Shown one piece after another: positions 4,140 to 63,975 of a stretch of DNA of 64,000 nt. Origin of the DNA: Ferrimonas marina (GTDB lineage: Bacteria > Pseudomonadota > Gammaproteobacteria > Enterobacterales > Shewanellaceae); contig NZ_FQXG01000003.1 of the NCBI RefSeq assembly GCF_900129905.1, positions 301,771 to 365,770 on the forward strand. The letters are read 5' to 3'. The position numbers and the translations under genes were made by a program. Every line of letters starts with the position of its first letter. The stretch's first letter is position 1. The notes under the pieces were generated by a model. It ran no database searches. It was not told where the DNA came from and saw only the letters and a program-made list of their open reading frames with translations.

Positions 4140-4159
4140 AAATATACCTCAGTATATTT
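4140..4159. promoter_or_regulatory. 20-bp palindrome, copy 1
   Basis: Perfect 8-bp inverted repeat AAATATAC / GTATATTT with a 4-bp spacer, lying between the divergent genes that start at 4107 (minus) and 4219 (plus). Same element as the other copies listed. Confidence 0.7.
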
Positions 4160-4218
4160 TAAATGGCAATCCCTAGGGGTCTCTAGGTGGTAAAATTAAA
4201 GAAAAAGAGGTTTGCGGG

Positions 4219-4989
4219 ATGCCGGGGATTACTGCGATTGCGCTGCGGGGCGAGCATGGGAAGAACGGGGGGGTTAACACCAAACTGGGGGCACCGACGT
4301 TCGTTGCGCCCGATCTGCTGGCGGGCTATCGCAGTGATAATTGGGACCGGGATGTGCGCCAGAGTGTTGAATGTGCAGTCAGGTACGCCACCAGCCCCAA
4401 CAATCGTGACGATGTGGTTGAGCGGCCCCGGGTCATGACAGCGATGGTCAATATGGCCAAGGTCTACCCGGAGCGACGCCCGGACCAAAGCGAACAACAG
4501 TGGCTGCAGTGCATCAGCGACGGTTTCTATGAGTTGAAAGATCTGGCGAAGGTGCTGGGGGTGGGGCAGACCAAGTGCCTGGCCTTCGAGTGGGAGGACC
4601 ACATCTACAATACCGACAACGACCTGGCTGGGTGCCCGGACATCGAAACCCTGTTCGCCACGCGCAGCGATGAGGAAGCTCTAGGGGAGCTGTATGTGAG
4701 CGCCTATGCCGTATTGGACCATCCCGAGGTGGTGAAAGGTTTGCGCGAGGCTGGCTACGATGGCGCGGTGCACGGAGGCAGCGGCGAAAGTGCCTTGCTG
4801 TACGAACTGCGGGTGCTTGGTGATGTTGATCGCCAGGTGCAGGTTGTCGTTGACCAGGGTGTTGTTGAGCGTGGCTGGGAAGAGCAGTCAGAGCGCTTCG
4901 CAAGTGCGCTGGGTTATCTAGCGAGAGATCTCGCCAGGATGAAGGAGCGGGTCAATAGTCTCGGGGCAGGCGGGCTGGTGGCGCAGTAG
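4219..4989 (+). CDS. Hypothetical protein with possible ADP-ribosyltransferase-like C-terminus, 256 aa
   Basis: No family is certain. The region from about residue 150 to 215 (ELYVSAYAVLDHPEVVKGL, GYDGAVHGG, then a beta-strand-like LLYELRVLG) resembles the end of phage and plasmid ADP-ribosyltransferase-fold domains, in which a GYDGxx strand is followed by a strand with the catalytic Glu; here the Glu of LYELR would be the candidate. The N-terminal half is unrecognised. The start has weak ribosome-binding context; it lies 60 bp from the palindrome at 4140-4159. Its stop nearly abuts the convergent membrane gene at 4991. Confidence 0.6.
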   Translation: MPGITAIALRGEHGKNGGVNTKLGAPTFVAPDLLAGYRSDNWDRDVRQSVECAVRYATSPNNRDDVVERPRVMTAMVNMAKVYPERRPDQSEQQWLQCISDGFYELKDLAKVLGVGQTKCLAFEWEDHIYNTDNDLAGCPDIETLFATRSDEEALGELYVSAYAVLDHPEVVKGLREAGYDGAVHGGSGESALLYELRVLGDVDRQVQVVVDQGVVERGWEEQSERFASALGYLARDLARMKERVNSLGAGGLVAQ

Positions 4990-4990
4990 C

Positions 4991-5389
4991 CTAGCAGCCA
5001 CCAAACTGGTGCATGGCCAGGCGATGCTTTCGGTCTATGTGGACAAAGGGAAGCGCAAACACCAGTGCGACGACAGGACCCAGCAGGGCAGTGATGGGGG
5101 CAAACAGATGTAGGCTCCAGGTCAGGATGAAGCTGGCGGTAAAGCAGAACAGCCGGGCTCTGATAGACATGGCGTCCGTCATCCCGGTGTCTTTCATCCA
5201 CAGGCGCCAGGCAATCCAGCTGGTGCAGGCGGAGATGGCAAGCAGCGAGATAGCAACCGCCGGTGTCAGGCTGAAGGCGATCACGATATTGACCAGAGCG
5301 CCCAGGCCGCAAATCGCGGACAGCGCATCAAACACCAGTACGGCGTCGTCGTAGGAGTCCTGTAGCAGTTGTGCTCTTGGGTGGATCAT
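4991..5389 (-). CDS. Small four-pass membrane protein, fifth of a tandem family, 132 aa
   Basis: Four hydrophobic segments alternating with short basic loops predict an inner-membrane protein. It is the most diverged of five adjacent genes (to 7378) that share length, topology and a conserved pattern between segments 2 and 3; the Asp found there in the others is not kept. Its ATG overlaps the stop of the upstream gene at 5386. Last gene of the operon. Confidence 0.65.
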   Translation of the reverse strand: MIHPRAQLLQDSYDDAVLVFDALSAICGLGALVNIVIAFSLTPAVAISLLAISACTSWIAWRLWMKDTGMTDAMSIRARLFCFTASFILTWSLHLFAPITALLGPVVALVFALPFVHIDRKHRLAMHQFGGC

Positions 5390-5856
5390 GACGGGTCTTG
5401 GTCCTTGTCCGGTTCGTTGTTCATTGTGCTGATACTCTCGAGTTGCTGCAATGCCTGTTGATGCATGCGTCCCTCAAGTATCAAAGAAGCCTGTGTGTTT
5501 GCCATGGCCATAGCCATGATCGGCGCGATGATGGCTAGCAGGTGGGAGAAATGCAGCGCGACAGCGAGTGAAGTTAAGGTGAGCAGGAAGGTGCTAAGAC
5601 CGGCGTAGCGGCGGGCCGCCTTACTGATCCCGTGTGTTCGAAGGCACAGCGCGTCGCTTGCCAGGGTGGAGAGGCCGCAAAGTAACACGAGGAGCGCTGC
5701 TGACTGCCATCCGCTGTCGACAATCACTGGGCAGAGCCAGTGCTCCGCCAGCAATAACGTCGAGATGAGGAAGAGCAGGGCGACGCCCACCGGGCCGGTA
5801 ACGGCTTTAAGGTGCTGGACGTCGTCTACAGTGCTTTGCACCAGGTCTCGATTCAC
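5386..5856 (-). CDS. Small four-pass membrane protein, tandem family member 4, 156 aa
   Basis: Four hydrophobic segments with a polar N-terminus and a Gln/Glu-rich C-terminal tail. It shares with its neighbours the order: hydrophobic pair, a motif of the type P-x-[VI]-x-DS, then ASDALCLR (small residues followed by Asp and a basic residue), then two more segments and a tail with HQQALQQL. The start overlaps the stop of the preceding gene by four bases (5853-5856). Function unknown; the tandem arrangement suggests subunits of one membrane assembly. Confidence 0.65.
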   Translation of the reverse strand: MNRDLVQSTVDDVQHLKAVTGPVGVALLFLISTLLLAEHWLCPVIVDSGWQSAALLVLLCGLSTLASDALCLRTHGISKAARRYAGLSTFLLTLTSLAVALHFSHLLAIIAPIMAMAMANTQASLILEGRMHQQALQQLESISTMNNEPDKDQDPS

Positions 5857-8186: not shown

Positions 8187-8206
8187 CGATATATAAAAGT
8201 ATATGC
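8187..8206. promoter_or_regulatory. 20-bp palindrome, copy 2
   Basis: CGATATAT, spacer AAAA, GTATATGC. Imperfect copy, 26 bp upstream of the leftward gene starting at 8161. Confidence 0.6.
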
Positions 8207-17082: not shown

Positions 17083-17463
17083 CTACTGCCAAGCTAAGAC
17101 GACCTCGGTCGCATCCGCCGTCAACGGCATCAGGCAGGTGGCCTTACGCCAGTCGCCAGCCACATTGGCCTCACCGAAGGTGACAATCACGCCGCTGGGC
17201 AATTGGTAGTAGTCAGGCTTCGCTTCGAGGAGCGACTTAAACAGTGTTTCGGAGATCGGAATATACGGTCGCTTCAGCATCCATGTTGTCGGCTCCGGCC
17301 CTAACAGTGGGGTAGCGCGTTTAACGTTAACGTCAGCCTGAGCAAACCACAACTCGGCGGCCTCGATGTCGGTCAGCGGTGTCTCACGCTGTTTCAGTTC
17401 GACGTCAAAGTAGGGGTCGATCCAAGCTGAGGGCAGGATTTTCTTAATCATTCGCTTATACAT
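17083..17463 (-). CDS. Hypothetical protein, 126 aa
   Basis: Unrecognised soluble protein of mixed alpha/beta character. The start lies 38 bp from the perfect palindrome copy at 17501-17520, which should contain its promoter or operator. First gene of the short leftward unit ending at 16111. Confidence 0.6.
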   Translation of the reverse strand: MYKRMIKKILPSAWIDPYFDVELKQRETPLTDIEAAELWFAQADVNVKRATPLLGPEPTTWMLKRPYIPISETLFKSLLEAKPDYYQLPSGVIVTFGEANVAGDWRKATCLMPLTADATEVVLAWQ

Positions 17464-17500
17464 CTCAGTGGCCTCCTGCCATCAATCACTCAACAGGTAA

Positions 17501-17520
17501 CAATATACTTAAGTATATTG
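17501..17520. promoter_or_regulatory. 20-bp palindrome, copy 4 (perfect)
   Basis: CAATATAC, spacer TTAA, GTATATTG: all 20 bases are self-complementary. It is the cleanest copy in the window and defines the consensus. Confidence 0.75.
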
Positions 17521-17550: not shown

Positions 17551-18018
17551 TCAGTGCCGGCACAGGTTCCCTGCTAGTGACCCATAGGCCTGCATGGCAG
17601 CGCGTGCCAGGCGGTACTTTTTGCGGTCCCGGCTGACATTGGACGGGTCCAGACCTAGGGCTCTGCCGATCTGCGCGGGGGTGTGGCCGGCTTCAATCAT
17701 CTCGTACATGGGCCGAAGACCGAGCTTGGGTGTCACCTTGAAGAACGCCAATACGGCATCGGTGTACGCAGAGGTGCCCTTAGGGGCCACCAGGGCGCGC
17801 TGATGGGCCTGGTGCATCCGGGTCAGCCGGTCAATGCCCTGCTGAACGTCACGCTTAAAGGTGGCGTCATCCCCTGGTGCAGGGAAGGGGGTGCCGTTCA
17901 CCAGCACCGAGCACAGGCGACGGCGGATGGCCTCCTTGCGTTGGTGGTTACTGTTGGCCAGCAGGGCTTTGAACTGTTGTGCGCTCAGGCGCAGTTCCTG
18001 GGGTGCGTGACAGTGCAT
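17551..18018 (-). CDS. Helix-turn-helix protein coupled to the DndC-like gene, 155 aa
   Basis: Residues about 112-134 (TPAQIGRALGLDPSNVSRDR) form a clear helix-turn-helix of the kind found in resolvase-type and sigma-4-like DNA-binding domains. The first 100 residues are basic and helical and unrecognised. Its ATG overlaps the stop of the 1139-residue gene by one base (TAATG), so the two proteins are made together. It may regulate the locus or bind DNA as part of the system. A DNA-binding gene coupled to a DndC-like gene recalls dnd clusters, which carry a separate regulator DndR; homology to DndR is not claimed. Confidence 0.65.
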   Translation of the reverse strand: MHCHAPQELRLSAQQFKALLANSNHQRKEAIRRRLCSVLVNGTPFPAPGDDATFKRDVQQGIDRLTRMHQAHQRALVAPKGTSAYTDAVLAFFKVTPKLGLRPMYEMIEAGHTPAQIGRALGLDPSNVSRDRKKYRLARAAMQAYGSLAGNLCRH

Positions 18019-21000
18019 TACGCGGCCTCCTGCTTGGTGATGGCGCCCATGGCCATGGCCAGGCGTGAGGCCTTAAGCTCGGCGCTTTGGCTGCGGGCGC
18101 GGTACAGCGCGCTGAACACCTCCAGTTGTCGGGGCTTGGCGCTCAGGTGCACCTGCTTCATCTGCTCCTTGGCCAGGTGGGCCCGGTCCGCCAGCTTCTG
18201 CGGGGTGTTCTCGCTGTCCTGTTTGCCGAACACGGCGCACTGCTGCGGCATGCCGTGGGCAAAGGCCAACATGGTGATCAGGTAGCTGGTGGTCGAGTAG
18301 TGGTTGGTGCCCGGCAGTTGCTCGCAAATCCAGTCCGCCAGGGCATCGGTTGCACCGGTGTCGCCTGTAATCTCGTAACAGTACTCCCCGAACTCAAAGC
18401 CATCCTGTGACTGGTGATCGCTCACCAGGGCGCTGAGCTGTGTACCGGTCTGATCAAGATGCTTGGCGATCTCCAGGGAGGCTTGGCAGTAGGCCCGGCG
18501 CACTGCAGCCAAGGCCTTGCGATCGGTCACGATGGCCTTCTGCTCAGCTTGGGTGGCCAGTAGAGCCAGGGCCGCCTTCTCGGAGGTCAGGGCCGGTCCA
18601 TGCTCAAGCAGCCAGTAGCGGGTGATGTCGAGCTTGGTGCGGGACTGCTCGCCGCGGTGCTGCAGCAAGCTGGCTGCCAGGTGTTGCTTGGCAACGCGCT
18701 GGTACTGGCCGGCGAACTCATCCAGGCGTTGGATGACCCGGGCGGCTGCGTCCTGGGTGTTGGTCAGGCCAAGGGCGTGCACCCGTCGACGCTGAAGGTT
18801 GCGCAGGTGGCGGATGGCCAGCAGGTGGTTGGCTTTCTGGCTGCGATGCTGGGCCATGGTGACGACGCTGGGGTGGTGCGCAATCAGCTTAGACGGCATC
18901 TGGCCCAGGTTAAACAGGCCGGCCTTGTGGAAGCACTCAGTGCGCGACAGGGCCTTGGTCATGTAGTCAGCGAACTGGACGCTGGTGCTCACGCCGGAGT
19001 TGCTGGTGATGAAGTAGGCCGGAGCAGTACCATGGTAGGCCCGCAGCGGCAGGCGCTTGGCAATGCGCTGCTGCATGGCGGCATCGTGCTGGGCCAGCAT
19101 CAGCCCCCATGCGCCCTCTTTGAGCCAGGCGTGGAAGCGCTCAGAGTCGATGTTGAAGCCGGCCTGCATGTTGTCCAGGTCCACAGTGCCCTGATCGTGC
19201 AGGTCGATCTGGGTACGTACAGACAGGGTGAAGTCGGGCATCCAGTAGCCGACGGTAGCAACCTGGCGACGGTGGCTGACGCAGTCAGTGCTGGCCTTGT
19301 AAGTTTTGAGAGAAGCTCGGCCCGGGTCCATGGCGCCAGTCTGTTTGTTGACCTGGCGCTTGCGACGGGAGAAGCCCTTGGCAGGTTCCGCCTTGCGATC
19401 GCCAGAGTAGTCGACAACTTCGGACTCGAACAGGCGCTGCTGGGCAAACTCGTGGGTGGCGCTGACCTCAACCGGGCCGGCTTGGTTGGCGATGATGTCG
19501 GCGTGGATCTCTTCTACCGAAGCTTTGAAGCCGTGCTGGCTCTCAAAGGCAGTGGCCAGGTCGCGACGGCCCAGGCTCAGCAACTGAGAGCGCAGTGCCG
19601 GGTCCCGGCTCAGGTTGATCTGCCGGTCGCTGTGGCCGTCCTTCGCGGAGATCGCCTCTTCACCCGTCTTGGGGTCGAAAGCGTAGGTCAACTGGAAGCG
19701 GCGGGTGTGGGTCGGCAAGGTGTTGGGGCGCTGTACAGGCCGGCCAAACGGGTCCATTACCAGATCACGACCGGTGGGGAGGTTCTCCAGCGGGATGGGC
19801 AGGTAGTCCTGCAGGTGCTCAGCGGACAGGGCGTCGCCATGTTCTGCCTTAAGTTGAGCGAAGCTCTTCTTAACCGGCTTGAACAGCTGGACGGCAATGG
19901 CTTCCGGTACCTCTCGGTTGAGCTCAGTGTCACTGTCCCACTTGCCACGGCCCTGTGCCGCCAGCTTGGCGTTAAGCTCGCTGTTGGTCAGCGGGAAGGG
20001 CAGGCGCTTACCCTTGCGCACGTCATCGAGGATCTTGACCGGGCGGTAGGGGAGGGCGGCGACCCCATGCAGTGCCCACATCAGGCTCAGCAGCACGGCA
20101 TGTTGTTCGGTGAACAGGTTGAACATCGGGGCTGCACGCAAGCGCTCGATATACATCTTGCGGTACTCGCGACGGACCTTCGGGATCATGGTGGTATCGG
20201 CCATGATGTCTTGCACGCCAGGGTGCTCATCAACGCGGCCTTGCTCGTACAACTCGACGAAGTCGCGATGCAGTTGTTGGGAGTCCACGGTGATCTGGGC
20301 GGCATACTGGACCATATGCTCGAGCACGCGGGCCTTGAGCACGTTGGGCTGCAACAGCACGTTGCAGTTAGCCACGGGGTCATACGCCCGGGCATGGTAG
20401 GCGCGCTGGTTGATGTCGGTGCCGACACGGACCATGTAGTCACGGAAGCGCAGGGTGCTGTCGCCAAATACGGCCCAGCGGGGGTAGGCAAGCAGCTCTT
20501 TGGCGGAGTGGTCGTTGCTGACCATGCCGCAAGTAACGCAACCGTAACGGGCCACGCCACCACAGCCCTTGGACTGCTCCTGCTTGCCATCTTCGTTGCT
20601 GACCATCTCGCAGACGTCGTTGGAGCCTTCGCCGTAGATCTGCAGCAGCACGCCGTAGTGGGGCATGAACGCCTCGATGCGCTGGTTGGGCAGGGTGCGG
20701 GACATGGACTTGTCGCCACAGTGGGCCAGGTAGTTGAGCACCTCTTGCACGGTCCAGTCGCCGATGGGGGCGAACTTGAACACCTGACCCGGCTTGTTGC
20801 TGGCCTTGCGGACTCGGTCAATCAGGGCGGCGGCCTTAACGCCACGAACGCCCTGCTTGTTCATGTTGTGGCTGCGGCGGCTGGACTCCTCGCTGCGGCT
20901 GCCGGAAATAGAGACCCAGGTGCGGTCCTGGTACTTCTTCGGCAGGGACTGCTTGATCTGCTTCAGTGCGGCAATGGATTGGTTCACCTTCCAAATCAGT

Positions 21001-21437
21001 GAGCAGTCAGCGTGGCGTCCGGACATGGCGGTGGCCGGCAGTTTCTGGGCCCCGGCGAACAGGATCATCAGCTGCTGGTGCAGCGGCGGGGTGACGATGC
21101 GCATCTGGAGATTGATGTCGTGGTTTTCGCAGTAGTCTTGCAGGTGCCGGGCGGCAAAGGGCACGTAGCACTGCAGGTTCTCCGGCTCCAGCAGGGTGTC
21201 CACGGTAACCACCACCAGCGGGTGGTCCGCTTCGATGAGGTCGGTATCAATGGCCCGACGCATGGCATCCAGGGCGGCGTTGGTGACGGTCTTGCTGTCC
21301 TTGCCGTAGGACAGGCCGATCTGCAGGCAGTAACCTTCCGCCAGCAGCGCCAGGTACTCGGCGACCAGCGCCTCGTGGCTGGTAAAGGCCGCTTCGGCCT
21401 GTTGGTTGACGTTACCGCTGATATCGATGGCAAGCAT
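18018..21437 (-). CDS. Giant DndC-like PAPS reductase-family protein, 1139 aa
   Basis: The first ~340 residues match DndC, the ATP-pyrophosphatase/iron-sulfur enzyme that supplies sulfur for DNA phosphorothioation. Visible motifs: PP-loop SYGKDS at 43-48, SGSRSEES at 178-185, and a four-Cys set C276, C292, C300, C303 in which GVARYGCVTCGMV matches the DndC pattern RFGCxxC. DndC is usually about 500 residues; here another ~600-700 follow. That C-terminal part is helical and basic, contains no motif I recognise, and no intact second enzyme is obvious. ATG at 21437; palindrome copy 5 lies 70 bp upstream. It is divergent from a DndB-like gene. The usual partners DndA, DndD and DndE are not in this window. 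A DNA-modification role is therefore inference. Confidence 0.75.
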   Translation of the reverse strand: MLAIDISGNVNQQAEAAFTSHEALVAEYLALLAEGYCLQIGLSYGKDSKTVTNAALDAMRRAIDTDLIEADHPLVVVTVDTLLEPENLQCYVPFAARHLQDYCENHDINLQMRIVTPPLHQQLMILFAGAQKLPATAMSGRHADCSLIWKVNQSIAALKQIKQSLPKKYQDRTWVSISGSRSEESSRRSHNMNKQGVRGVKAAALIDRVRKASNKPGQVFKFAPIGDWTVQEVLNYLAHCGDKSMSRTLPNQRIEAFMPHYGVLLQIYGEGSNDVCEMVSNEDGKQEQSKGCGGVARYGCVTCGMVSNDHSAKELLAYPRWAVFGDSTLRFRDYMVRVGTDINQRAYHARAYDPVANCNVLLQPNVLKARVLEHMVQYAAQITVDSQQLHRDFVELYEQGRVDEHPGVQDIMADTTMIPKVRREYRKMYIERLRAAPMFNLFTEQHAVLLSLMWALHGVAALPYRPVKILDDVRKGKRLPFPLTNSELNAKLAAQGRGKWDSDTELNREVPEAIAVQLFKPVKKSFAQLKAEHGDALSAEHLQDYLPIPLENLPTGRDLVMDPFGRPVQRPNTLPTHTRRFQLTYAFDPKTGEEAISAKDGHSDRQINLSRDPALRSQLLSLGRRDLATAFESQHGFKASVEEIHADIIANQAGPVEVSATHEFAQQRLFESEVVDYSGDRKAEPAKGFSRRKRQVNKQTGAMDPGRASLKTYKASTDCVSHRRQVATVGYWMPDFTLSVRTQIDLHDQGTVDLDNMQAGFNIDSERFHAWLKEGAWGLMLAQHDAAMQQRIAKRLPLRAYHGTAPAYFITSNSGVSTSVQFADYMTKALSRTECFHKAGLFNLGQMPSKLIAHHPSVVTMAQHRSQKANHLLAIRHLRNLQRRRVHALGLTNTQDAAARVIQRLDEFAGQYQRVAKQHLAASLLQHRGEQSRTKLDITRYWLLEHGPALTSEKAALALLATQAEQKAIVTDRKALAAVRRAYCQASLEIAKHLDQTGTQLSALVSDHQSQDGFEFGEYCYEITGDTGATDALADWICEQLPGTNHYSTTSYLITMLAFAHGMPQQCAVFGKQDSENTPQKLADRAHLAKEQMKQVHLSAKPRQLEVFSALYRARSQSAELKASRLAMAMGAITKQEAA

Positions 21438-21506
21438 GCCTGCTCCTGTGCCGTTCCGGCGTTTTCCTTAACTGACAACCAGGTTATCGGGTCAGCTAAA
21501 CGTTGT

Positions 21507-21526
21507 CAATATACAAAACTATATAT
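21507..21526. promoter_or_regulatory. 20-bp palindrome, copy 5
   Basis: CAATATAC, spacer AAAA, CTATATAT; 70 bp upstream of the DndC-like gene on the minus strand. Confidence 0.65.
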
Positions 21527-21587: not shown

Positions 21588-21607
21588 TAATATACTTATG
21601 TATAACA
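21588..21607. promoter_or_regulatory. 20-bp palindrome, copy 6
   Basis: TAATATAC, spacer TTAT, GTATAACA; 22 bp upstream of the DndB-like gene. With copy 5 this places one element in front of each divergent gene. Confidence 0.65.
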
Positions 21608-21628: not shown

Positions 21629-22900
21629 ATGGACATGTTGAACGAAGCCGTAATTGAGCAAGGTGCTGTTGACCAGGGCTCGGTCACCGATGAGCTGCAC
21701 ATCCCCCAGCGCACTATTGTCGGTCAGGAGACTCTGACCTTCACCCTGGTGGCCGGTACCGAAGGGATCGGCACCACCTACAGCTGTAAGCCGACCTATC
21801 AGGTCCTAGCGGACAACTTCGAGATCGAAGACGAAGCCCTGCCGGAATTTGAGCGTCTGCAGCGCGACGCTGACCGTCCTCGGGTTAAGAAGATCTTGGC
21901 CTATCTGCGTGACCGAGATAACACCGTGTTCCCCTCTGCCTGTCTGGTGCTGTCGGCCCAGGACTTTGAGCTAAAGCGCGTCGACGTCGTTGTCGATGGC
22001 GAGGTGGTGGACCATGTCTGGCGGGGTACTCTGCCGGCGTGGGCCGACCGTTTGTTCATTGACGGTCAAGGCCGCCTGGTGAGCATCAAAGAGGTATTGC
22101 AGATCCGTCCTGAGTTGGCTTCTCATGCCTTGGATGTGAAGATCGTGCTGGTGCCCACCAAGACCATCCGGGAGTCTGAGGCCTTTGTACGCCAGATCTT
22201 TGCTGACTTCCACCTGGGGCTGCGCAAGCCCAACAAGAGCCAGAGCCTGTTCTTTGACTCCGAAACCGCCGTCTCCCGCTTCGTGAATAACGAACTGCCC
22301 CAGGCCGTCGACGCGCTCGATGGTGCCATGGTTCAGGGTCTGTCTCGCACTGGCCGCCTGGCCAAGGGGCAGCTGTTCAACCTGGCAACCGTGCATGACA
22401 TGGTCCGTATCCTGCTCGGTGGCGTGAACGAGACCAAAGCCAACGAGATGTTGGATAACCCGGTCATTGGACAGCACCTCAAGCAGTTCATGATCAATTT
22501 CTTTGCTTCGTTGTACAAGCATCTGCCGCTGAAGGACCTGCAGGATCACCCGGGCAAACCCAAGGAGATGCGCGCAGCCGCCAACAACAACGTGCTGACC
22601 TGCGTGATTGGCTTCAAGGCACTGGCCTACCTGGGCTGCTCCATGTCAGAGGAGTTCATGTACAGCGATGCCGAGGAGCCGGAGCAGATGAAGGCACATT
22701 TGGATGATCTGTTGGGTCGCCTGGCCAAGCTCAAGGAAATGCCGCTGACGGAGCGTGGCGATAAGACCTGGACCACCGCCAAGATTTACCAGAACGACGA
22801 CGGCAAGATCACGATCGTGAAGGGCTCTGAAAAGCGCCTGGCGTTCCAGTTCTGCCGGAAGGTTGGGGTGATGCCCTGCGAAGCGTTGGGTATGGGTTAA
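21629..22900 (+). CDS. DndB-like protein (DGQHR family), 423 aa
   Basis: The region from residue 37 to 230 follows the DndB/DGQHR layout: an early LQRDADRPRVKKILAYL helix, a hydrophobic strand FPSACLVLS, the signature LFIDGQGRL at 142-150, and then QIFADFHLGLRKPNKSQSL. The signature normally reads DGQHR; here it is DGQGR, so the His is Gly. DndB represses dnd operons and may bind DNA during phosphorothioation; the DGQHR family is otherwise of unclear chemistry. Start ATG at 21629 after AAGGAGT. Three small genes follow at close spacing. Divergent pairing with the DndC-like gene strengthens both assignments. Confidence 0.75.
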   Translation: MDMLNEAVIEQGAVDQGSVTDELHIPQRTIVGQETLTFTLVAGTEGIGTTYSCKPTYQVLADNFEIEDEALPEFERLQRDADRPRVKKILAYLRDRDNTVFPSACLVLSAQDFELKRVDVVVDGEVVDHVWRGTLPAWADRLFIDGQGRLVSIKEVLQIRPELASHALDVKIVLVPTKTIRESEAFVRQIFADFHLGLRKPNKSQSLFFDSETAVSRFVNNELPQAVDALDGAMVQGLSRTGRLAKGQLFNLATVHDMVRILLGGVNETKANEMLDNPVIGQHLKQFMINFFASLYKHLPLKDLQDHPGKPKEMRAAANNNVLTCVIGFKALAYLGCSMSEEFMYSDAEEPEQMKAHLDDLLGRLAKLKEMPLTERGDKTWTTAKIYQNDDGKITIVKGSEKRLAFQFCRKVGVMPCEALGMG

Positions 22901-32009: not shown

Positions 32010-32029
32010 CGGTATACAAAAATATATTT
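32010..32029. promoter_or_regulatory. 20-bp palindrome, copy 7
   Basis: CGGTATAC, spacer AAAA, ATATATTT; 76 bp upstream of the DUF4942 methyltransferase gene. Confidence 0.6.
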
Positions 32030-32104: not shown

Positions 32105-33709
32105 ATGAACACTGCCACTGCTCTTGCCGTTGTACCTGAATGCCACAAGTTGTTTCCAAAAGGTCATTTTGAGTTCGAAGAGGCTCCTCGCATCGACCTG
32201 ATGCTGCGCCAGTACCAGGTGCACAAGGCGAAAATCATGGCCTTCCATGACCAGTTTGAAGACGCTGATTTTGCTTACTCACTGCAGATGATCCTCAGCG
32301 GCAACCAAAATATCGGTATCACTATGGACCCTTCCGACATGGATCGGGCGGCCAGCATTAGTGCCCTCGATGCAGACTACTGGTCTAAGGCGATGAACGC
32401 CACCGGCTTGTACGATTTCATGACCGCGGAGAGGCGCGAAAAGTGGAGTAATGCAATTTACCTTAAGGAATGCCCGCCCTTTGAACCGGAGGCAGTGATC
32501 ACGACACTAAAGGAGTTGCTACTGTCACGCGGTACCCTGTTTGCCGAGCGGGTCGACTGGGTGTTCCGCAAGCTCTCTGGTGAACACAAGACCAACCTGC
32601 CCCAAGGATTCTCGAAAAAGCTGATCTTCGGCACCAGCTATGACCGCAGTGGCAAATCGGATGCGTCCTCTGTACAGCAAAACTGCATCCAGGAGCTGCG
32701 CTACGTCATTGCCACTATGCTGGGTCAGGAGTGCGGCAAGGATCTGGAGAGCAACCAGATCCTGCGCGATGCCAAGGCCAACTCCGGTAAGAAGGTGGAG
32801 ATTGATGGTGGCAGCCTGGTGATCACCATGTACAAGAAGGGGACCATGCACGTCGAGGTGCATCCGGAGATGGCTTGGAAGCTCAATGAGTTGCTGAACC
32901 TGAAGAACCCTGAAGCTATCCCTAACAAAATCCGCCAGCCGTATAAGAACGCCCTGGCACTGCGCAGCTTTAAGACCAAGACCATGGTAAAAGACTGGCT
33001 GCCGGCCGCGGTGTTGTCTGCCCTCAAAGAGGCGGAGTGGAAGGCTGAAGGAACTGAGTTGCGTATTGGTTGGCCGCACAACAGTGATCGCTTCGTTGGT
33101 AAGTGGATCGCCAACATCCTCGGTAGTTTGGGTGCTGAGCTGATTGGGCCGAGCCTGTACCGGTTTGAGTACGATGCCCGGCCGGTGATCCGCCAGGTGT
33201 TGTTGCAGCGTTGTGTGCCGGAGCAGCAGTCTTACCAGTTCTACCCCACAGGGGATGAGCTGGGCAAGATGGCGGCGGAGTGGCTCAATGCCAAGCCGGG
33301 GGATGGGTGCCTGGAGCCGCAAGCAGGGCGGGGTGATCTGGCCCGTTTCCTGCCCGATGAGTCGACCACCTGTGTGGAGCTCAGTGATCTGCGTTGTACC
33401 GTGCTCAAGCAGAAGGGCTTTGGCCAAGTGGTGTGTGCCGATTTCCTGGAGTGGGGCCGTCGTACTTCCCAGCGCTTTGACAAGATTTTGAGCAACCCGC
33501 CGTTCACCGGAGGCCAGGACCGCCACCATACCGAGCTAGCCGTGAGCTTGCTCAAGGTGGGTGGAAGCATGGTCGTCATCCTTCCCTCCTCACGTCGCGA
33601 GAAACTCCACTTCTCTGGATGTAAGACCCGTTGGAGCGAGGTCATCAAAGGCGCGTTTGAAGACACCATGGCGTCAGTGGTTGTAGCCCATATCACCCGG
33701 GAGCAATAA
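32105..33709 (+). CDS. DUF4942-type DNA N6-adenine methyltransferase, 534 aa
   Basis: The C-terminus (about residue 378-534) has adenine-methyltransferase motifs: LEPQAGRGDLA at 403-413 as SAM motif I and SNPPFTGGQD at 463-472 as the catalytic NPPF motif. The preceding ~350 residues look like the DUF4942 region found in plasmid-borne methyltransferases. The start ATG at 32105 follows AGAGGGA; upstream residues in this frame belong to the terminator region and are not used. Role: methylation of host or element DNA, possibly protection from restriction; the target site cannot be read here. Controlled from palindrome copy 7. Confidence 0.8.
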   Translation: MNTATALAVVPECHKLFPKGHFEFEEAPRIDLMLRQYQVHKAKIMAFHDQFEDADFAYSLQMILSGNQNIGITMDPSDMDRAASISALDADYWSKAMNATGLYDFMTAERREKWSNAIYLKECPPFEPEAVITTLKELLLSRGTLFAERVDWVFRKLSGEHKTNLPQGFSKKLIFGTSYDRSGKSDASSVQQNCIQELRYVIATMLGQECGKDLESNQILRDAKANSGKKVEIDGGSLVITMYKKGTMHVEVHPEMAWKLNELLNLKNPEAIPNKIRQPYKNALALRSFKTKTMVKDWLPAAVLSALKEAEWKAEGTELRIGWPHNSDRFVGKWIANILGSLGAELIGPSLYRFEYDARPVIRQVLLQRCVPEQQSYQFYPTGDELGKMAAEWLNAKPGDGCLEPQAGRGDLARFLPDESTTCVELSDLRCTVLKQKGFGQVVCADFLEWGRRTSQRFDKILSNPPFTGGQDRHHTELAVSLLKVGGSMVVILPSSRREKLHFSGCKTRWSEVIKGAFEDTMASVVVAHITREQ

Positions 33710-40476: not shown

Positions 40477-40496
40477 CAATATACGAAAATATATCA
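40477..40496. promoter_or_regulatory. 20-bp palindrome, copy 8
   Basis: CAATATAC, spacer GAAA, ATATATCA; 17 bp upstream of the gene starting at 40460 on the minus strand. Confidence 0.6.
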
Positions 40497-45003: not shown

Positions 45004-45216
45004 ATGACTAATTTAAAACAACTGCGGCAGCGGGCCGCACAGAAACAAGAGGTGGTGGCACACCAGATGGGCATGGGTTGCCCTGGGGTGAGCAAGTTGG
45101 AGGCTAAGGCACCAGAGCAGCTTAGGCTGGCTCAGCTTCGCCAGTACGTTGAGGCAATCGGTGGGCAGGTGGAATTGGTGATCAGGGTGCCTGGGGAGGC
45201 TGATGTTGAGCTGTGA
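45004..45216 (+). CDS. XRE-family HTH protein (HigA-like antitoxin or repressor), 70 aa
   Basis: Short helix-turn-helix of the XRE type: RQRAAQKQEVVAHQMGMG then GVSKLEAKAPEQLRLAQLRQ, ending in a typical LRQYVEAIGGQVELVI. It begins 41 bp after tRNA-Ser(TGA). No toxin gene lies next to it, so it is an orphan antitoxin or a small repressor. Confidence 0.7.
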   Translation: MTNLKQLRQRAAQKQEVVAHQMGMGCPGVSKLEAKAPEQLRLAQLRQYVEAIGGQVELVIRVPGEADVEL

Positions 45217-49690: not shown

Positions 49691-49710
49691 AAGTATATAA
49701 AAGTATATCA
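49691..49710. promoter_or_regulatory. 20-bp palindrome, copy 9
   Basis: AAGTATAT, spacer AAAA, GTATATCA; 58 bp upstream of the gene starting at 49633 on the minus strand. Confidence 0.65.
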
Positions 49711-52700: not shown

Positions 52701-52720
52701 TAGTATACAAAAATATATTT
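52701..52720. promoter_or_regulatory. 20-bp palindrome, copy 10
   Basis: TAGTATAC, spacer AAAA, ATATATTT, directly upstream of leader copy 2. Confidence 0.65.
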
Positions 52721-54942: not shown

Positions 54943-54968
54943 GAGAGGGGCCTTCGGGCCTCTCTTTT
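54943..54968 (+). terminator. Rho-independent terminator
   Basis: Stem GAGAGGGGCC, loop TTCG, GGCCTCTC, followed by TTTTG; a second small hairpin (GTGAAC / GTTCAC) lies upstream at 54921-54933. Confidence 0.75.
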
Positions 54969-54984
54969 GTATCGGCGGATTGCC

Positions 54985-57729
54985 ATGGCTAGGTGGTTGC
55001 CCTACCGTAGGGGGGTAATAAGGCGTTGGATATCAGAGGGTCAGCAACCGGTGGACGTTGAGCTAAAAGCGACAGGCTATTCTTCAATGCGGGTGGGGAC
55101 CAGGACCTCGCTTGCCGTGGAGGAGGTGGAGCATCTGCTGAACACGGGGTGTTGTGTGGCCATTGGTTCCAGAGAGTGGGGCAAGGAGCTACGCTCGCAC
55201 TACCTGTTCTATTCTGAGCCTGATCGGCAGTGTTTCGTTGCGGTTTGCCGCCTGCAGGGCGGGTCCAAAATGGGCGGTACCAGCAACGGCGCCATCGTTA
55301 CCGTCCTGCCTTTGGATTACCACCAAAACTGTGCCTGGGGCGTGTCCATGGAGGCTCAGCGCCAGGCCAAAGAGCTGGTCATGGGGGCGGAGGATCCGGA
55401 TGGGCCCAGTGTGGTGCTGGAGGCCGCCCTGAATGACCGGGAACAGATCCTGGCGTTGGGCCGATGGATGTTGCCGAACCTGCCCGCGGAGCAGGTGGAC
55501 TCGCACCTACGTGGACTGGTGCAGCGGGAGGGCTTTGCCAGTGTGGCCACGGCTGCGTTGTTGGGTCGAGTGCCGGAGTTGGCAAGCTGCCCGGGGTCAA
55601 AGATCGACACCCTGCGATTACGTCACTTTCGCAAGGGGCGCCGCCAGCGGCATAGCCTGATCTGCGAGTTGGAATGCGCCCCGGTGGACGGCGGTTGGCG
55701 ATTCGCGCTGCCGGAGCGGCCTAACTGGAGGAAGGGGCCGGGAGCGGCGTCTGTGCTGCCGGTTAAGGGAAATGCACTGCCCCAGGGCAATGCCACGGTC
55801 CAGTTGCAGGCGCTGTGCCAGTCATCCGAGGGTGGGTTGTTGTCTGCCGTGCTGTTGCACCGTTTTATGGCCCGGCTTTCTGGCGACGCCCTGGCCGTAG
55901 GTAAGGCGGATCTTGGTAATTTGGGTCAATGCCTGGCGGCCGATGGGGTGATGGCCGGTGTGCTGGAACGCCTTGAGGCGGTGGGCCGCCGGCAATCCAT
56001 TGTCGGCTTTCGCGTGCTGGCCCGGGTCGTTGGGAGGAAGCGCAATTACGAGCTGCCAGTTACTCTGTGTGGCGCAGCGATGCTCAGACGGGTCAAGGGA
56101 TACACCTGGGTGCCCCATGAATTGGGTACCGTGGCGCCGTATTACACGGTGGAGGCCGAGCTTGGCTTGAGGAACCAGGGGCTGGATACCCATCACCTGG
56201 CACAGATGTTGGTGAGCACCCGCCGTATTGAGCTGAATAAACTCAGTCGTAAAAGCCCGTTCGGGCCCGATCACCGGGCTGTGCTGATCTATCCGCGTGG
56301 TGTCCCCGGTGGGCTGGTCGCCGTGATCAAGAGGGACGTGAACCAGGTGGTGGGGTTAGTGGAGCTCTTTGCCTTGTCGCCGGGGGATCGGGACAAAATA
56401 AGCGCTGACCCGAAAGCCATGGCTGCGATCCGCCACCGCCACCTGGCCCTTCAGGGCGACGCGGATGTCGGCTTGCAGCTGGTGATTGACGGTGTGTTCC
56501 GTCAGGACAGGCGCCTTGATGAGCACCGGCACAGGCTGGTGGCCTGGCCCTGGCCAGGTCGGGATTACCGGGCGGAAGGCCTTTTGAGCGCTCTGGGTAG
56601 TCAGTTACAACATCCCGAACGGATTGCCGAGTTGGTGCGCCAGGTGAATCTGCCTGAAAAGCGTGGCCGGGGAGAATTACAGGACATCGAGGGCTATGTG
56701 AAGGGGCTGGGGTGCAGTTGGCCGGTACAGTTGACCGTTACGCTGGATGCCGGCGGCCAGTTGTCCTTACGGTGGCTCAATCAGGCACGGTGGTATGGCG
56801 ATTTTGCACAGGAGTTGGCGGGGGCCATCGAGGGCAAGCTGATCGGAGGCCCCGGTTACGTTCGGCCACCAGCGTTGGATCCGTGCAGGATAGAAAGAGC
56901 GGACGCCATCGTGGCCAGCCAGAAGGCCGCTATTGCAACCCCTCAAGAGGAACGCAGTTGGGATCGGGTGACAAACGGGCTGGCTGCCGGTTTTAGCGCT
57001 TCGCTGCAATGCCAGACGGCAGATGGGGTGAGTTTTGAGGTGCAGTGTGATCGCAGCTGGCCTCTTCGATGCACCTTGGCATCGTCCCCCAAAGCCAGCT
57101 TGGAAGCCCTGGTGTCCGCCAGCGACTTCGCTCAAAGCGTCGCTGATGCGGCGCAGCGTGCCCAGCACGAACTTGGGGCCAGGATCACCGGTGTCCGGGT
57201 TGAACTGCATGGGAACAGACAGCATCCGTCTAACGGCGTGTTCGCGGACTTGGACGCCATTGCACTAGCCTCACCGCCGCAGGAGTGGGCTGGTTGCCTG
57301 AAGGTCCGGGTGCCGCGGGGGTTGCGGGCCCAGCTGGTGTTATCCGCCAGCAGTGAATTGCCGCTACCGATGCCGCCAGCAGGGGCAGAGTGCCGCCAGC
57401 GCTTTACCTTTGGGGTAGCCCTGGTGAAAGGCTGGGGCGGAAGCCGTCAGCGCCGTGCCGAGCAGGGTGTGGCCTCGTTGGCTGACTACGGGGATGGCGA
57501 TCTGAAGGAGAGCATGACCAAGTTCTGCGACTCAGAGGCGTACCGGTCGGCAGTCGGTCGGTTGTTGAATGATCTGAGCCCAGCCGACATTGCGGCTATC
57601 CGCAGCTTGACCGTGTTTCTATATGAGCCGGGGGCTAACGGCAAGGCGGTAGGCAGGGCCAGGGTGTGGGCCAATTACTGCTTGCCAGTTGGCCAGGACC
57701 CTCATGTTCGCCTGGAGATAGTCAACTAG
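54985..57729 (+). CDS. Very long unknown protein, 914 aa
   Basis: Not recognised in any part. It is soluble, basic in the first third, and contains several HF-R-K-x-RR-Q-RH patches, with an overall beta/alpha mixture and no transmembrane segment, Walker motif or Cys pair. The ATG at 54985 follows GGCGGATT; a TTG 18 bases earlier is an alternative. It is the longest plus-strand gene and a single-gene unit, directly after the exonuclease unit. The size and the lack of known domains make it worth a structure prediction. Confidence 0.6.
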   Translation: MARWLPYRRGVIRRWISEGQQPVDVELKATGYSSMRVGTRTSLAVEEVEHLLNTGCCVAIGSREWGKELRSHYLFYSEPDRQCFVAVCRLQGGSKMGGTSNGAIVTVLPLDYHQNCAWGVSMEAQRQAKELVMGAEDPDGPSVVLEAALNDREQILALGRWMLPNLPAEQVDSHLRGLVQREGFASVATAALLGRVPELASCPGSKIDTLRLRHFRKGRRQRHSLICELECAPVDGGWRFALPERPNWRKGPGAASVLPVKGNALPQGNATVQLQALCQSSEGGLLSAVLLHRFMARLSGDALAVGKADLGNLGQCLAADGVMAGVLERLEAVGRRQSIVGFRVLARVVGRKRNYELPVTLCGAAMLRRVKGYTWVPHELGTVAPYYTVEAELGLRNQGLDTHHLAQMLVSTRRIELNKLSRKSPFGPDHRAVLIYPRGVPGGLVAVIKRDVNQVVGLVELFALSPGDRDKISADPKAMAAIRHRHLALQGDADVGLQLVIDGVFRQDRRLDEHRHRLVAWPWPGRDYRAEGLLSALGSQLQHPERIAELVRQVNLPEKRGRGELQDIEGYVKGLGCSWPVQLTVTLDAGGQLSLRWLNQARWYGDFAQELAGAIEGKLIGGPGYVRPPALDPCRIERADAIVASQKAAIATPQEERSWDRVTNGLAAGFSASLQCQTADGVSFEVQCDRSWPLRCTLASSPKASLEALVSASDFAQSVADAAQRAQHELGARITGVRVELHGNRQHPSNGVFADLDAIALASPPQEWAGCLKVRVPRGLRAQLVLSASSELPLPMPPAGAECRQRFTFGVALVKGWGGSRQRRAEQGVASLADYGDGDLKESMTKFCDSEAYRSAVGRLLNDLSPADIAAIRSLTVFLYEPGANGKAVGRARVWANYCLPVGQDPHVRLEIVN

Positions 57730-59021: not shown

Positions 59022-59041
59022 TGATATATAATAATATACTC
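59022..59041. promoter_or_regulatory. 20-bp palindrome, copy 11
   Basis: TGATATAT, spacer AATA, ATATACTC, between divergent genes at 58971 (minus) and 59098 (plus). Confidence 0.65.
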
Positions 59042-62300: not shown

Positions 62301-62320
62301 GAATATACATATTTATATCG
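62301..62320. promoter_or_regulatory. 20-bp palindrome, copy 12
   Basis: GAATATAC, spacer ATAT, TTATATCG, between genes at 62136 (minus) and 62426 (plus). Confidence 0.6.
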
Positions 62321-62425
62321 GCCAGGTCAAGGGGTTGCCTATTTGCAAAGCTGGTTGACTGGTTCAGCGCCATTGGCCGCTGTGGTACCATCAAAGAATA
62401 AAGAAGTGTTAATTGTGAGCGTGGG

Positions 62426-63607
62426 ATGGCGAAGTACCGGGAAGTGTTGGCGCGAGATGTTCGAGGGGGCTGGCGAAACGAGGGTCGTCGTGCTTTGGCG
62501 CGGTTGGACGAAGGTCTGCCAAAATATGCTGCTGAAGGTGAATTACTGAAGTCGAGGTATGTCGAGCTCAATAAGGATGTGGGTAACGTAGTTGAAGGTG
62601 TCTTTAGCCAGTTCAAGGAGCAATTGCTGGAACAGTTCCGGAACAATGGTTGGGAAAATAGAACCGCAGTAGAAACCAGCTTAAACTCTGCCCTGCCTTC
62701 CGGAAAGGCGCAGTTAAAAAAGTTTCTCCGCGACAGTGCAAAGCTTGACCTCGGCACCGAAACCGAACTCACCAGGACCTTGGTTATAGAGGCCCGTCAG
62801 TGTGCCGAGGAGTTGATAGCCCTGGATGTTGAGGTAAAGGGTTATGACGGTCTTGTGGTGACCCAAGGTCAGAAGCGTGATGCGGTGGTAAAGCGCCAGG
62901 CGGCTGAGAAAGAAGAGGCCCGACGGGTCGGCCACAAAGACGTGAAATATGCCGTGAAGTTTGCTGAGGAGTTGGTGGAGCAGTCCAGAGAAGGGATCAT
63001 CCAGGAGATGGCCCGGCGGACTGAGCGTCATCAAGAGGCGATGATTGCGGCCATCAAGGACGCTGACTATGTCTGGCAGTCTTATGCTCCGCGGAAGCGT
63101 GACAAGGCTTTGCCTTACCACCAGTTTGGTGGCTCCGACCTGGTAACGGTGGCGGATACTGAGTATGACCCAGAGCGGGGATGTGAGGTGTTCGTGATTA
63201 AGCCTAAGGCGGAGCGGGATAGGGTTATAAAAGAGAGGGCCGAGACTGCCTACCAGTATCTTAAAGACGAATTTGTGGGTAAGTTGAGCAAAAAAATTGG
63301 CGGGATCTTGGTGGCGCGCGGGGATTTGAAAGAGGGCGGGCTATCGTCGCCGCCTTTGAGGGTTTCCAGTAATATTGAGGCGCTGGTCACCGCGGAGTTT
63401 GAAGACGGGGGCCGCTTTAATGTCCGTGCCCAGTCGGTGACTGTATACAAACATAATATTAAAAACGGCTTTTGCGAGCAGTATCGGTTTAGCTTTCACG
63501 ATTGCTATTTTGGCGATGGCAGGAAGTTGCCATACCCGGACCTTGATAGGGTAAGCATTCATTTCGCCGGGATTAAGCCTAAGCGGGAAGTGGGTCCGTC
63601 GCGCTGA
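62426..63607 (+). CDS. Hypothetical coiled-coil protein, 393 aa
   Basis: Strongly helical and charged, with long Glu/Lys/Arg/Gln stretches at about 60-240 (FKEQLLEQFRNNGWEN, EEARRVGHKDVKYAVKFAEE) that predict extended coiled coil, then a beta-rich C-terminal ~120 residues. No enzyme motif is seen. ATG at 62426; no strong ribosome site. Followed by a terminator, so a single gene. Confidence 0.6.
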   Translation: MAKYREVLARDVRGGWRNEGRRALARLDEGLPKYAAEGELLKSRYVELNKDVGNVVEGVFSQFKEQLLEQFRNNGWENRTAVETSLNSALPSGKAQLKKFLRDSAKLDLGTETELTRTLVIEARQCAEELIALDVEVKGYDGLVVTQGQKRDAVVKRQAAEKEEARRVGHKDVKYAVKFAEELVEQSREGIIQEMARRTERHQEAMIAAIKDADYVWQSYAPRKRDKALPYHQFGGSDLVTVADTEYDPERGCEVFVIKPKAERDRVIKERAETAYQYLKDEFVGKLSKKIGGILVARGDLKEGGLSSPPLRVSSNIEALVTAEFEDGGRFNVRAQSVTVYKHNIKNGFCEQYRFSFHDCYFGDGRKLPYPDLDRVSIHFAGIKPKREVGPSR

Positions 63608-63624
63608 CCTGGCAAAACTACACA

Positions 63625-63648
63625 GGCCGCCTGAGGGCGGCTTTGTTA
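63625..63648 (+). terminator. Rho-independent terminator
   Basis: Stem GCCGCC / GGCGGC with TGAG loop, followed by TTTGTT. Confidence 0.75.
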
Positions 63649-63975
63649 TATCTGGGGCCTGGCTTAAGGGGGAGTGAACAATGCTCCCTCATGGGCGCTT
63701 TGGCGTCGGAATGAGTGGTCTGCAGATGGGCACAATCCCCAAGCAGGCGGGCCCTACGGGAATGTTTCTCATCAGCCATTGTTGCAGCGGGAGCGTCCAG
63801 CTAACCCAGAATTCGGCATTTAATGCTGTATAGGGCGGCATGCAGGGGGTGGCCAGTAGGGCATAGCGAAGCGCCCATAATATACTTGAGTATACTAACG
63901 GACATGGTGCCCTGGAAGGGTGGTTAGAGCTGCTGGCGGGACCGCCAGCACTAGGGACAGAACATTGGAGGTTTT
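63649..63975. other. Intergenic region, 327 bp
   Basis: No gene is supported. It contains palindrome copy 13 and leads into the gene at the right edge. Confidence 0.5.
63878..63897. promoter_or_regulatory. 20-bp palindrome, copy 13
   Basis: TAATATAC, spacer TTGA, GTATACTA; 79 bp upstream of the partial gene at 63976. Confidence 0.7.

Follow-up and report, generated by a model that had tools for sequence, protein, structure and literature searches.

The window, the whole 64,000-bp stretch of Ferrimonas marina DNA that was analyzed, belongs to a 576-kb contig (C10) carrying type-IVB (Dot/Icm-like, MPF_I) conjugation genes. DotI/IcmL, DotD, IcmW, TraI-type T4SS and pilus genes each had a single match in the 142 contig proteins that were scanned, and the run of conjugation genes is colinear with the T4SS of Shewanella NZ_CP050315. 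Judged by its genes, the contig would be a large conjugative-type (type-IVB-like) plasmid; phage structural families are absent from the Pfam families listed (25 of 67 and 25 of 47) for the part of the proteins that was scanned.

Palindromic sites in the window

An initial annotation had described thirteen dispersed copies of a 20-bp palindrome in the window, all in promoter regions. When all 13 coordinates were read and scored against a contig-wide matrix, 12 proved to be real sites (21.9–30.1 bits), while the one at 11502, with TATG instead of TATA and only 5.4 bits, was rejected. No additional site of at least 14 bits occurs in the window. The 12 sites, given without strand, and the genes discussed below are as follows.

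4140..4159, palindromic site AAATATACCTCAGTATATTT, 27.0 bits; 35 bp before a (-) gene ending at 4107 and 62 bp before a (+) gene at 4219
8187..8206, palindromic site, 21.9 bits; 28 bp before a (-) gene at 8161
17501..17520, perfect 20-bp palindrome, 30.1 bits; 40 bp before a (-) gene at 17463
21507..21526, site in the DndC/DndB divergent gap, 23.1 bits; 72 bp before the DndC-like start
21588..21607, second site in the DndC/DndB divergent gap, 28.8 bits; 24 bp before the DndB start
32010..32029, site inside a called ORF, 25.9 bits; core 78 bp before an alternative start at 32105, (+) gene ending at 33709
40477..40496, site, 28.7 bits; 19 bp before a (-) gene at 40460
49691..49710, site, 26.4 bits; 60 bp before a (-) gene at 49633
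52701..52720, site in a divergent gap, 28.3 bits; nearest called starts 196 bp and 265 bp off
59022..59041, site in a divergent gap, 23.1 bits; two called starts 53 and 59 bp off
62301..62320, site, 22.2 bits; 108 bp before a (+) gene at 62426; T before the second TATA
63878..63897, site, 26.9 bits; 81 bp before a (+) gene at 63976
18018..21437, (-) strand, DndC/PAPS-reductase-like gene (1139 aa), predicted target; tblastn matches in 1944 plasmid records, several of which carry a PAPS reductase family annotation
21629..22900, (+) strand, DndB-like gene, predicted target; Pfam DndB at E 2.7e-19 on the longer ORF 21569–22900
32105..33709, (+) strand, predicted target; product shares 33% identity with a DUF4942-annotated protein of a Shewanella plasmid
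45004..45216, (+) strand, 70-aa HTH_37-like gene, weak regulator candidate; HTH_37 at E 5.9e-5, below cut-off; no site within 420 bp upstream

The site at 17501 is a perfect palindrome as claimed, and the one at 62301 departs by one letter from the pattern given for all copies, yet scores well within the real sites. The promoter position holds for 10 of the 12, which have a called start at most 110 bp away (19–108 bp; gene starts here and below come from a home-made gene caller); the exceptions are the sites at 32010 and 52701. The homology of the 32105..33709 product was computed on a longer call, 31958–33709. The 1139-aa DndC-like protein has no Pfam match.

Distribution and promoter geometry of the motif

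The original observation of a dispersed palindrome is real and larger than first noted: the contig holds 64 sites of the consensus AATATAC-WWWW-GTATATT, and just 13 weaker matches fall in the range of 6–14 bits. The palindrome also came first when the contig was scanned for palindromes and dyads with no motif assumed. The contig is readable over 510,836 bp, and 86% of this part is coding DNA. The core word TATA[CT]N4[AG]TATA occurs 54 times there (51 intergenic, 2 coding, 1 partial), against 0.13 expected in intergenic DNA. TATA-N6-TATA is found 60 times, while every other spacing from 0 to 13 gives at most 10, and three symmetric control palindromes have no occurrence on the readable contig. 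In the whole genome, 57 of the 58 forward matches of TATAYN5TATA and all 30 of TATACN4GTATA lie on this contig. Thus a specific site stands at many promoters of the element and is nearly absent from the host.

Divergent gaps hold 37 of the 64 sites, tandem gaps 26 and convergent gaps only one. The region from 176 to 500 kb contains 56, leaving 8 for the conjugation cluster (149–176 kb) and everything to its left. Nearly all are single and dispersed over 480 kb, and a looser matrix (74 sites) finds only 4 neighbours less than 80 bp apart, and therefore no clustered array. The flanks have little in common beyond promoter elements.

These promoter elements were examined in the 43 sites lying 10–70 bp from a start, which can be oriented. 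The downstream half-site doubles as a -10 box (TATATT), and TTG[AC] stands 15–17 nt ahead of it at 20 of the 43, beginning at -13 (9 sites), -12 (6) or -11 (5) relative to the core, that is, as a -35 box 17, 16 or 15 nt before TATATT; all other 54 positions together give 32 occurrences. The upstream half-site is conserved equally to the downstream one, though no promoter needs it. A motif-blind promoter scan placed a recA promoter, TTGACC-17-TATATT (10/12), on the site, although its count for this stretch, 3, is near the 2.4 expected by chance. The site is predicted from this geometry to overlap RNA polymerase contacts. The initial annotation had named a similar density inside genes, or a lack of overlap with transcription start regions, as grounds for giving up the regulon idea; with 60 of the 64 sites intergenic (3 coding, 1 partial) and a half-site serving as the -10 box, neither was found.

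A putative repressor and its predicted targets

Probably, with a likelihood of about two in three, one dimeric repressor encoded by the plasmid uses the palindrome as its operator and shuts some 60 sigma-70-type promoters. The operator would lie in the spacer after the -35 box and extend across the -10 box, so that a bound dimer would block RNA polymerase and keep all of these promoters off. The target genes are scattered, lie for the most part away from the conjugation region and include DNA-processing and anti-restriction types; the set may be silent in a settled host and switched on jointly upon entry into a repressor-free cell (zygotic induction) or upon relief of repression. The site, its number, contig restriction, promoter position and target list are computed results; repression rather than activation, the regulator class and the timing are inferred. 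Operators of one dimeric regulator controlling many genes, as the initial annotation proposed, are the best reading of the sequence, with the regulator itself putative.

Element-specific promoters, which the initial annotation had offered as the other choice, are a less probable reading, given the symmetry of the motif and its overlap with ordinary sigma-70-type elements. More broadly, the sites could serve an activator, or be promoters read by the element's own sigma factor or a phage-type polymerase. Their location at promoters and near-absence from the remaining genome would suit this, as would the 23 of 43 oriented sites that have no TTG[AC] -35 box at the right place. Promoters, however, are directional while the motif is symmetric, and the -35-like box at 15–17 nt with a near-consensus -10 inside the motif suits the host sigma-70. 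Some activators, those of the MerR type, do bind within the spacer, but their promoters have spacers of 19–20 nt, against 15–17 nt here. Overall, this explanation is unlikely.

The predicted targets on the contig include RecA, SSB, a YfbR-like nucleotidase, N6/N4 and C5 methyltransferases and a PAPS-reductase-like protein, with DndB and DndC-like proteins each represented twice. The sites were correctly noted on both sides of the DndB/DndC pair in the window, and the second DndB/DndC pair on the contig likewise has two sites. RecA and SSB carried on a plasmid may have other roles. One target of 120 aa (C10:399923) has a stretch that looks like an HTH but matches no HTH family, and it was dropped as an HTH protein.

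The presence of recA (a site lies 34 bp before it) and ssb among the targets raises the alternative of a LexA-like SOS regulon of the plasmid, whose repressor would be relieved by RecA upon DNA damage. The C-terminal regions of two XRE proteins (210 and 221 aa) also look LexA/CI-like by eye, apparently without the catalytic residues. Peptidase_S24 (PF00717), however, is not found on the readable contig, the two copies in the genome being on other contigs; both XRE genes show other inverted repeats and have no nearby upstream site; and the consensus differs from the LexA box, CTGT-N8-ACAG. An SOS regulon is therefore improbable, more so than activator sites. Least probable is a non-regulatory role as a centromere/partition or replication repeat, mobile short repeat, terminator or Frpo-type single-strand hairpin promoter: AT palindromes that enclose a 4-nt loop are able to form single-strand folds (-1.3 to -4 kcal/mol for four examples), and near parA of a related plasmid another palindrome forms a partition-like array, but here the sites stand singly 5′ of genes with only one in a convergent gap, form no parS- or iteron-like array, share little in their flanks, and have a visible -35 box outside the palindrome, so that -10 and -35 do not fall in one fold-back.

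Returning to a dimeric repressor, a host-encoded regulator was set aside because all 30 TATACN4GTATA words of the genome are on C10. The plasmid-encoded repressor would most likely be a Cro/CI-type helix-turn-helix protein. Several HTH proteins are encoded on the contig, none of them tied to the site. The three candidates named in the initial annotation, at 2679, 17551 and 45004, are all weak: the first two have sub-threshold HTH matches only, and a similar-sized neighbour of the gene at 17551 (by gene order and size only) stands beside DndC in plasmids that do not have this motif. For the four HTH_3-type genes of the readable contig, the distance to the closest upstream site ranges from 780 bp to 20 kb, and two of them show their own, different inverted repeats when read by eye. 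A 75-aa Aca2/YdaS-like gene (C10:216644–216871), with sub-threshold family matches only, belongs to an operon at whose head, 130 bp off, stands a site. The two XRE proteins have a CI/LexA-like look, and one is near recA; with nearest upstream sites at 9.1 kb and 780 bp and another inverted repeat before each, they were demoted from regulator to candidates. By tblastn, no relatives of these two, nor of the 427-aa and 920-aa proteins of the window, were found in 72,556 plasmids. A MarR-type protein is also counted among the contig proteins, and a better candidate than those examined may exist.

Known systems and related plasmids

Dispersed-operator regulons such as those of P1 C1 and RK2 KorB are already known, and the present case is an unusually large variant. 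P1 C1, described with 22 operators on P1 (PMC8546580), shares the principle of one repressor whose many single operators are scattered across an extrachromosomal element; its operator is asymmetric and 17 bp long, while the site here is symmetric (14–20 bp) and present in 64 copies, and the plasmid has conjugation genes. In RK2/RP4, KorA has 7 and KorB 12 operators, and plasmid-wide promoter repression is accompanied by zygotic induction once the plasmid has been transferred, the ssb-trfA operon included, according to PMC7314908. Compared with KorB, about five times more sites are found here, the conjugation region is largely site-free, and the regulator has no KorB/ParB assignment. Cluster A mycobacteriophages carry up to 30 dispersed repressor sites (stoperators) per element, with repressor/operator specificity varying between relatives, as reported in PMC6550527. 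Those are 13 bp long and in one prevailing orientation (PMC6550527), and elongation is described as stopped at the asymmetric sequence (PMC9283540); here the sites are symmetric and lie on promoters. The gene types resemble leading-region establishment genes, for which PMC11541004 describes SSBs, DNA methyltransferases and anti-defence proteins made early in the recipient. Such genes lie compactly near oriT on the T-strand, some with Frpo promoters, unlike the targets here, which are scattered over 320 kb on both strands.

The motif was not found elsewhere in 152 genomes of the family (30 here, control 0) or 394 of the order (20 here, next best 4). Two genomes with high counts, G025 (24 matches) and G186 (29), were discounted as carriers; most of the listed G025 matches and 25 of the 29 in G186, many of the latter at contig ends, are copies of a single sequence. 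TATACN4GTATA is absent from 13 distinct plasmids or genomes, save for 3 (control 2) in one 604-kb plasmid. A Vibrio nigripulchritudo plasmid, pVNTG2, has an AT-rich motif that is too vague to count (24 of its 30 matches are intergenic at the cut-off applied) and shows no target concordance (1/4 versus 5/14). TGTC-N7-GACA on a probable Motilimonas contig was rejected as a counterpart; it occurs 35 times against 1.76 expected, but 25 of these are in coding DNA.

New here are plasmids with a DndC-like relative but differing promoter motifs. In each of four other such plasmids a different promoter-dispersed motif was found. Homologs of the predicted targets are also targets in 6 of 6 cases in one of them, versus 0 of 13 for homologs of non-targets, and in 3 of 6 versus 2 of 22 in a second; the remaining two show no overlap. 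The DUF4942-annotated Shewanella homologue of the 32105..33709 product likewise has its own plasmid's motif upstream; for the Shewanella plasmid sites a 19-bit cut was chosen after viewing the list, and 16 bits gives 29 sites, 18 intergenic and 9 coding. Several distantly related plasmids seem to control their promoters in a like manner with entirely different DNA words. Different promoter words, with partly shared targets in two cases, suggest that operator specificity turns over as it does among temperate phages; such turnover would matter for plasmid exclusion and for events in the minutes just after transfer.

As a tentative generalization, large type-IVB-like conjugative plasmids might have a phage-like immunity, in which dozens of dispersed operators let a plasmid-specific master repressor silence a whole establishment and anti-defence arm. 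From one plasmid to another the operator word would be replaced completely, with some of the targets (DndB/DndC, C5 methyltransferase, DUF4942-like, YfbR-like) remaining constant. If this is true, such plasmids could be sorted, like temperate phages, into homo- and hetero-immune groups, and a resident would hold incoming plasmids of its own group silent. The list of about 60 promoters would make one regulon of a nameless gene block whose known members are largely of DNA-protection and repair types. It provides a testable, sequence-level handle on the coordination of very large conjugative plasmids, whose genes are mostly of no known function.

Distribution of the palindrome over the putative megaplasmid

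The palindrome AATATAC-WWWW-GTATATT, a predicted operator, is a mainly intergenic feature of C10, the 576,248-bp contig NZ_FQXG01000003.1 of Ferrimonas marina (coordinates below are those of C10 unless marked as window). C10 carries 54 copies of TATA[CT]N4[AG]TATA, of which 51 are intergenic, 2 coding and 1 partial; a first-order Markov model predicts 0.13 occurrences in its intergenic DNA. The core, TATA-N6-TATA, is present 60 times, and each other spacing from 0 to 13 at most 10 times. Three symmetric control palindromes gave no match on C10, and motif-blind scans of C10 ranked this palindrome first. The initial annotation placed all thirteen copies listed in the window in intergenic promoter regions, and the search of the whole replicon largely agrees: at 14 bits or more on a C10-wide matrix, 64 sites are found, 60 intergenic, 3 coding and 1 partial. 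Thirteen weaker matches, of 6 to 14 bits, may be chance, because five column-permuted matrices give 14–46 matches at 6 bits (1–7 at 12 bits). The sites are unevenly distributed, 56 lying in 176–500 kb and 8 in 1–176 kb.

Twelve of the thirteen 20-mers first listed in the window are borne out, with 21.9–30.1 bits, and the one at window 11502, with 5.4 bits, was dropped. That at window 17501 had been described as a perfect palindrome, and inspection agrees. A matrix scan of the 64-kb window, which spans 301,771–365,770 of C10, revealed no further site of at least 14 bits.

Outside C10 the motif is nearly absent. Genome-wide, 57 of the 58 forward matches to TATAYN5TATA are on C10. Among 152 family genomes, TATACN4GTATA is found 30 times here versus 0 for the control; two other family genomes with more than 9 matches were rejected as carriers, since repeats of one sequence dominate them. 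In a set of 394 genomes from the order, this genome has 20 copies of ATATACN4GTATAT and no other has more than 4.

The genome comprises 4.98 Mb in 18 contigs, and all C10 counts rest on 510,836 of its 576,248 bp. C10 has a G+C content of about 54 to 59% per 20-kb bin (bins with N excluded); samples of 14 other contigs gave 57 to 64%, and three of contig C6 gave 56 to 58%. Because genes at about 149–166 kb are colinear with type-IV secretion genes of the Shewanella plasmid NZ_CP050315, and C10 proteins match DotI/IcmL, DotD, IcmW, T4SS TraI and PilS, we take C10 to be a conjugative-type megaplasmid. The window also carries three consecutive tRNA genes, Ser(cga), Tyr(gta) and Ser(tga), at 44649–44962, and at 49730–51013 and 54967–57729 large proteins without Pfam family or tblastn match among 72,556 plasmids.

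Promoter geometry and the candidate regulator

The simplest account, to which we give roughly two chances in three, is that the palindromes would be dispersed operators of one plasmid-encoded master repressor. A called start lies within 150 bp of 54 of the 64 sites, at 10–70 bp for 43 of them. In 20 of these 43 oriented sites, TTG[AC] starts at −13 (9), −12 (6) or −11 (5) from the core, versus 32 occurrences over 54 other positions. From this placement, the downstream half-site TATATT is predicted to be a −10 box, with a −35-like box 17, 16 or 15 nt earlier. Upstream of recA, TTGACC-17-TATATT scored 10/12 in a consensus promoter scan blind to the motif, an illustration only, as the scan of this stretch found 3 promoters versus 2.4 expected. 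The alternative that the sites bind an activator, or are element-specific promoters themselves, is unlikely: the remaining 23 oriented sites, which have no TTG[AC] at these three positions, would suit it, but a −35-like box 15–17 nt before a half-site doubling as the −10 box speaks against it. The upstream half-site is as conserved as the downstream one, which a promoter alone does not require.

Furthermore, GTTGA occurs downstream of the core in 17 of 43 leaders (2.4 expected from shuffling), beginning 8–13 nt past the core, near the predicted transcript start, in 16 of 20 occurrences. It lies within 50 bp of the start in 16/54 genes with a site versus 47/522 without (p 5.5e-5), and may act as a signal in the initial transcribed region or at the RNA level; an example is the minus-strand leader at window 17463–17500. 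In 176–500 kb, a site at 10–70 bp heads 31 of 149 minus-strand first genes versus 10 of 127 plus-strand ones (p 0.0035). This bias falls in a region of positive GC skew.

For the proposed master repressor, the best-placed gene found, a weakly supported candidate, is 216644–216871. Its 75-aa product resembles Aca2_YdiL-like (E 6e-4) and YdaS (E 1.5e-3) proteins, both below cut-off, and the gene overlaps a NinX-like gene that begins 130 bp from a site. HTH_3 matches lie at 243187, 480927, 372739 and 207580, the last adjoining a HipA-like gene, with the nearest upstream site at 9.1 kb, 20.6 kb, 780 bp and 10.3 kb, respectively. By eye, genes at 242758 and 372664 have other, different inverted repeats upstream. 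A MarR-type protein is among the family matches; since one tally covers 25 of its 67 families and the other 25 of its 47, C10 may encode further DNA-binding proteins. No Peptidase_S24 protein is found in 510,836 bp of C10.

Predicted targets and known systems

Sixty-one genes start within 130 bp of a site on C10. In a Pfam search of 58 of them, one protein each, 14 score above the curated cut-off and 44 do not.

Predicted targets on C10 with an assigned family (Pfam unless stated)
RecA, SSB, YfbR-like
PAPS-reductase-domain protein
N6/N4 methyltransferase with Mrr_N domain
280,503: DndB
Window: DndB
C5 methyltransferase, YobI-like NTPase, cold-shock-domain protein
GmrSD_N protein
NinX-like, L5 gp82-like, DUF5983
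Two DndC-like proteins (by homology)

The DndC-like and DndB genes form two divergent pairs, at 276854–281699 and at window 18018–22900, and each gap holds two palindromes. Relatives of the DndC-like protein occur in 1944 plasmid records; in 7 of these, a single place covers 80% or more of its length.

Dispersed operators of a master repressor, as proposed here, are known from the phage-plasmid P1 (22 operators; PMC8546580), from RK2/RP4, which has 7 KorA and 12 KorB operators and whose ssb-trfA operon, among others, undergoes zygotic induction (PMC7314908), and from cluster A mycobacteriophages (up to 30 sites; PMC6550527). Because SSB and methyltransferases, present among the C10 targets, are among the kinds enriched in plasmid leading regions (PMC11541004), the target kinds suggest a possible role in establishment in a new host. 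Search listings of the open-access literature gave nothing closer on this plasmid or such regulons.

Motifs and targets of related plasmids

Of seven plasmids with a DndC-like or RecA relative and six further records searched for the C10 motif, one 604-kb plasmid alone has matches, 3 versus 2 for the control. A dyad search of six related replicons plus inspection revealed other promoter-dispersed motifs in four.

Motifs of related plasmids
Alteromonas pKD01, NZ_CP147979: palindrome around TGTGCGCACA; 32 sites, 30 intergenic, 2 coding; 30 in 216–306 kb
Aliivibrio pAWOD_2, NZ_LR721753: TTGCGGTATAATGA; 18 sites, 17 intergenic, 0 coding
Vibrio NZ_CP071847: palindrome TGTAATTAT-ATAATTACA; 16 of 16 intergenic; 67–94 kb
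Shewanella NZ_CP050315: asymmetric CAACTCTTAATTGATA; 18 sites of at least 19 bits, 17 intergenic by the gene caller used

Fourteen of the 16 Vibrio palindromes form seven pairs, the two members of each starting exactly 26 bp from one another; the palindromes lie 5′ of small unknown genes, and the T4SS region of this plasmid has none. The eighteenth Shewanella site lies between the annotated DndB and DndC genes, in a gap with three sites. Motilimonas C70 and V. nigripulchritudo gave no clear counterpart by dyad search and inspection.

Dyad scores reach 119 for C10 and 76 for the pKD01 palindrome (107 for another pKD01 word, TCCTACCCC). The best control scores are 25 (an SD-like word) and 12 in two MPF_F plasmids with a DndC relative, 32 (terminator-like) in 326 kb of chromosome samples, and 17 in the leftmost 176 kb of C10. 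The motifs of pAWOD_2 (46), Shewanella (27) and Vibrio (15) are not outstanding in score, because mainly coding words reach 46 (Vibrio GCTGGTGG) and 43 (Motilimonas GGCGCTAC, 26 intergenic and 30 coding sites); their support is intergenic placement. Promoter-dispersed motifs may extend beyond the type-IVB group, since the first MPF_F control plasmid (NZ_AP025015.1, loci L120–L126) has the word CCCTTGGGGG, scoring 21, with 20 of 30 sites intergenic.

C10 genes for which blastp gave a homolog (E 1e-6) were divided by whether a site heads the gene or operon, and the relatives' genes likewise by their own motif. In Shewanella, 6/6 homologs of C10 targets are targets versus 0/13 homologs of non-targets (p 3.7e-5), and in pKD01 3/6 versus 2/22 (p 0.05), where three choices were made after the data had been seen, namely how operons count, the cut at 19 bits and how sites in a called N-terminus are treated; earlier rules gave 2/5 versus 0/14 in Shewanella, where the matrix collapsed to one site, and 2/4 versus 3/24 in pKD01. 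The six kept in Shewanella are DndC-like, DndB, C5 methyltransferase, DUF4942-like, YfbR-like and one unknown. These two plasmids fit a kept target set; Vibrio (0/5 versus 1/23), Aliivibrio (0/4 versus 0/19) and V. nigripulchritudo (1/4 versus 5/14, with a vague motif) do not.

Other repeats were also seen. In the Motilimonas replicon (G068:C70, loci L051–L061), TGTC-N7-GACA is 20-fold enriched, yet 25 of 35 sites are coding. NZ_CP147979.1 has a second dispersed motif, TTTTCCTACCCCTGA, in 8.6–325 kb (loci L103–L119), with 46 sites, 39 intergenic, at a median of 13 bp from a start. In Shewanella NZ_CP050315.1 (locus L062), TTGAACATGTTCAA is repeated 50 times with about 65-bp spacing at about 194.6–197.8 kb, about 3 kb downstream of a ParA-family gene, likely a centromere array.
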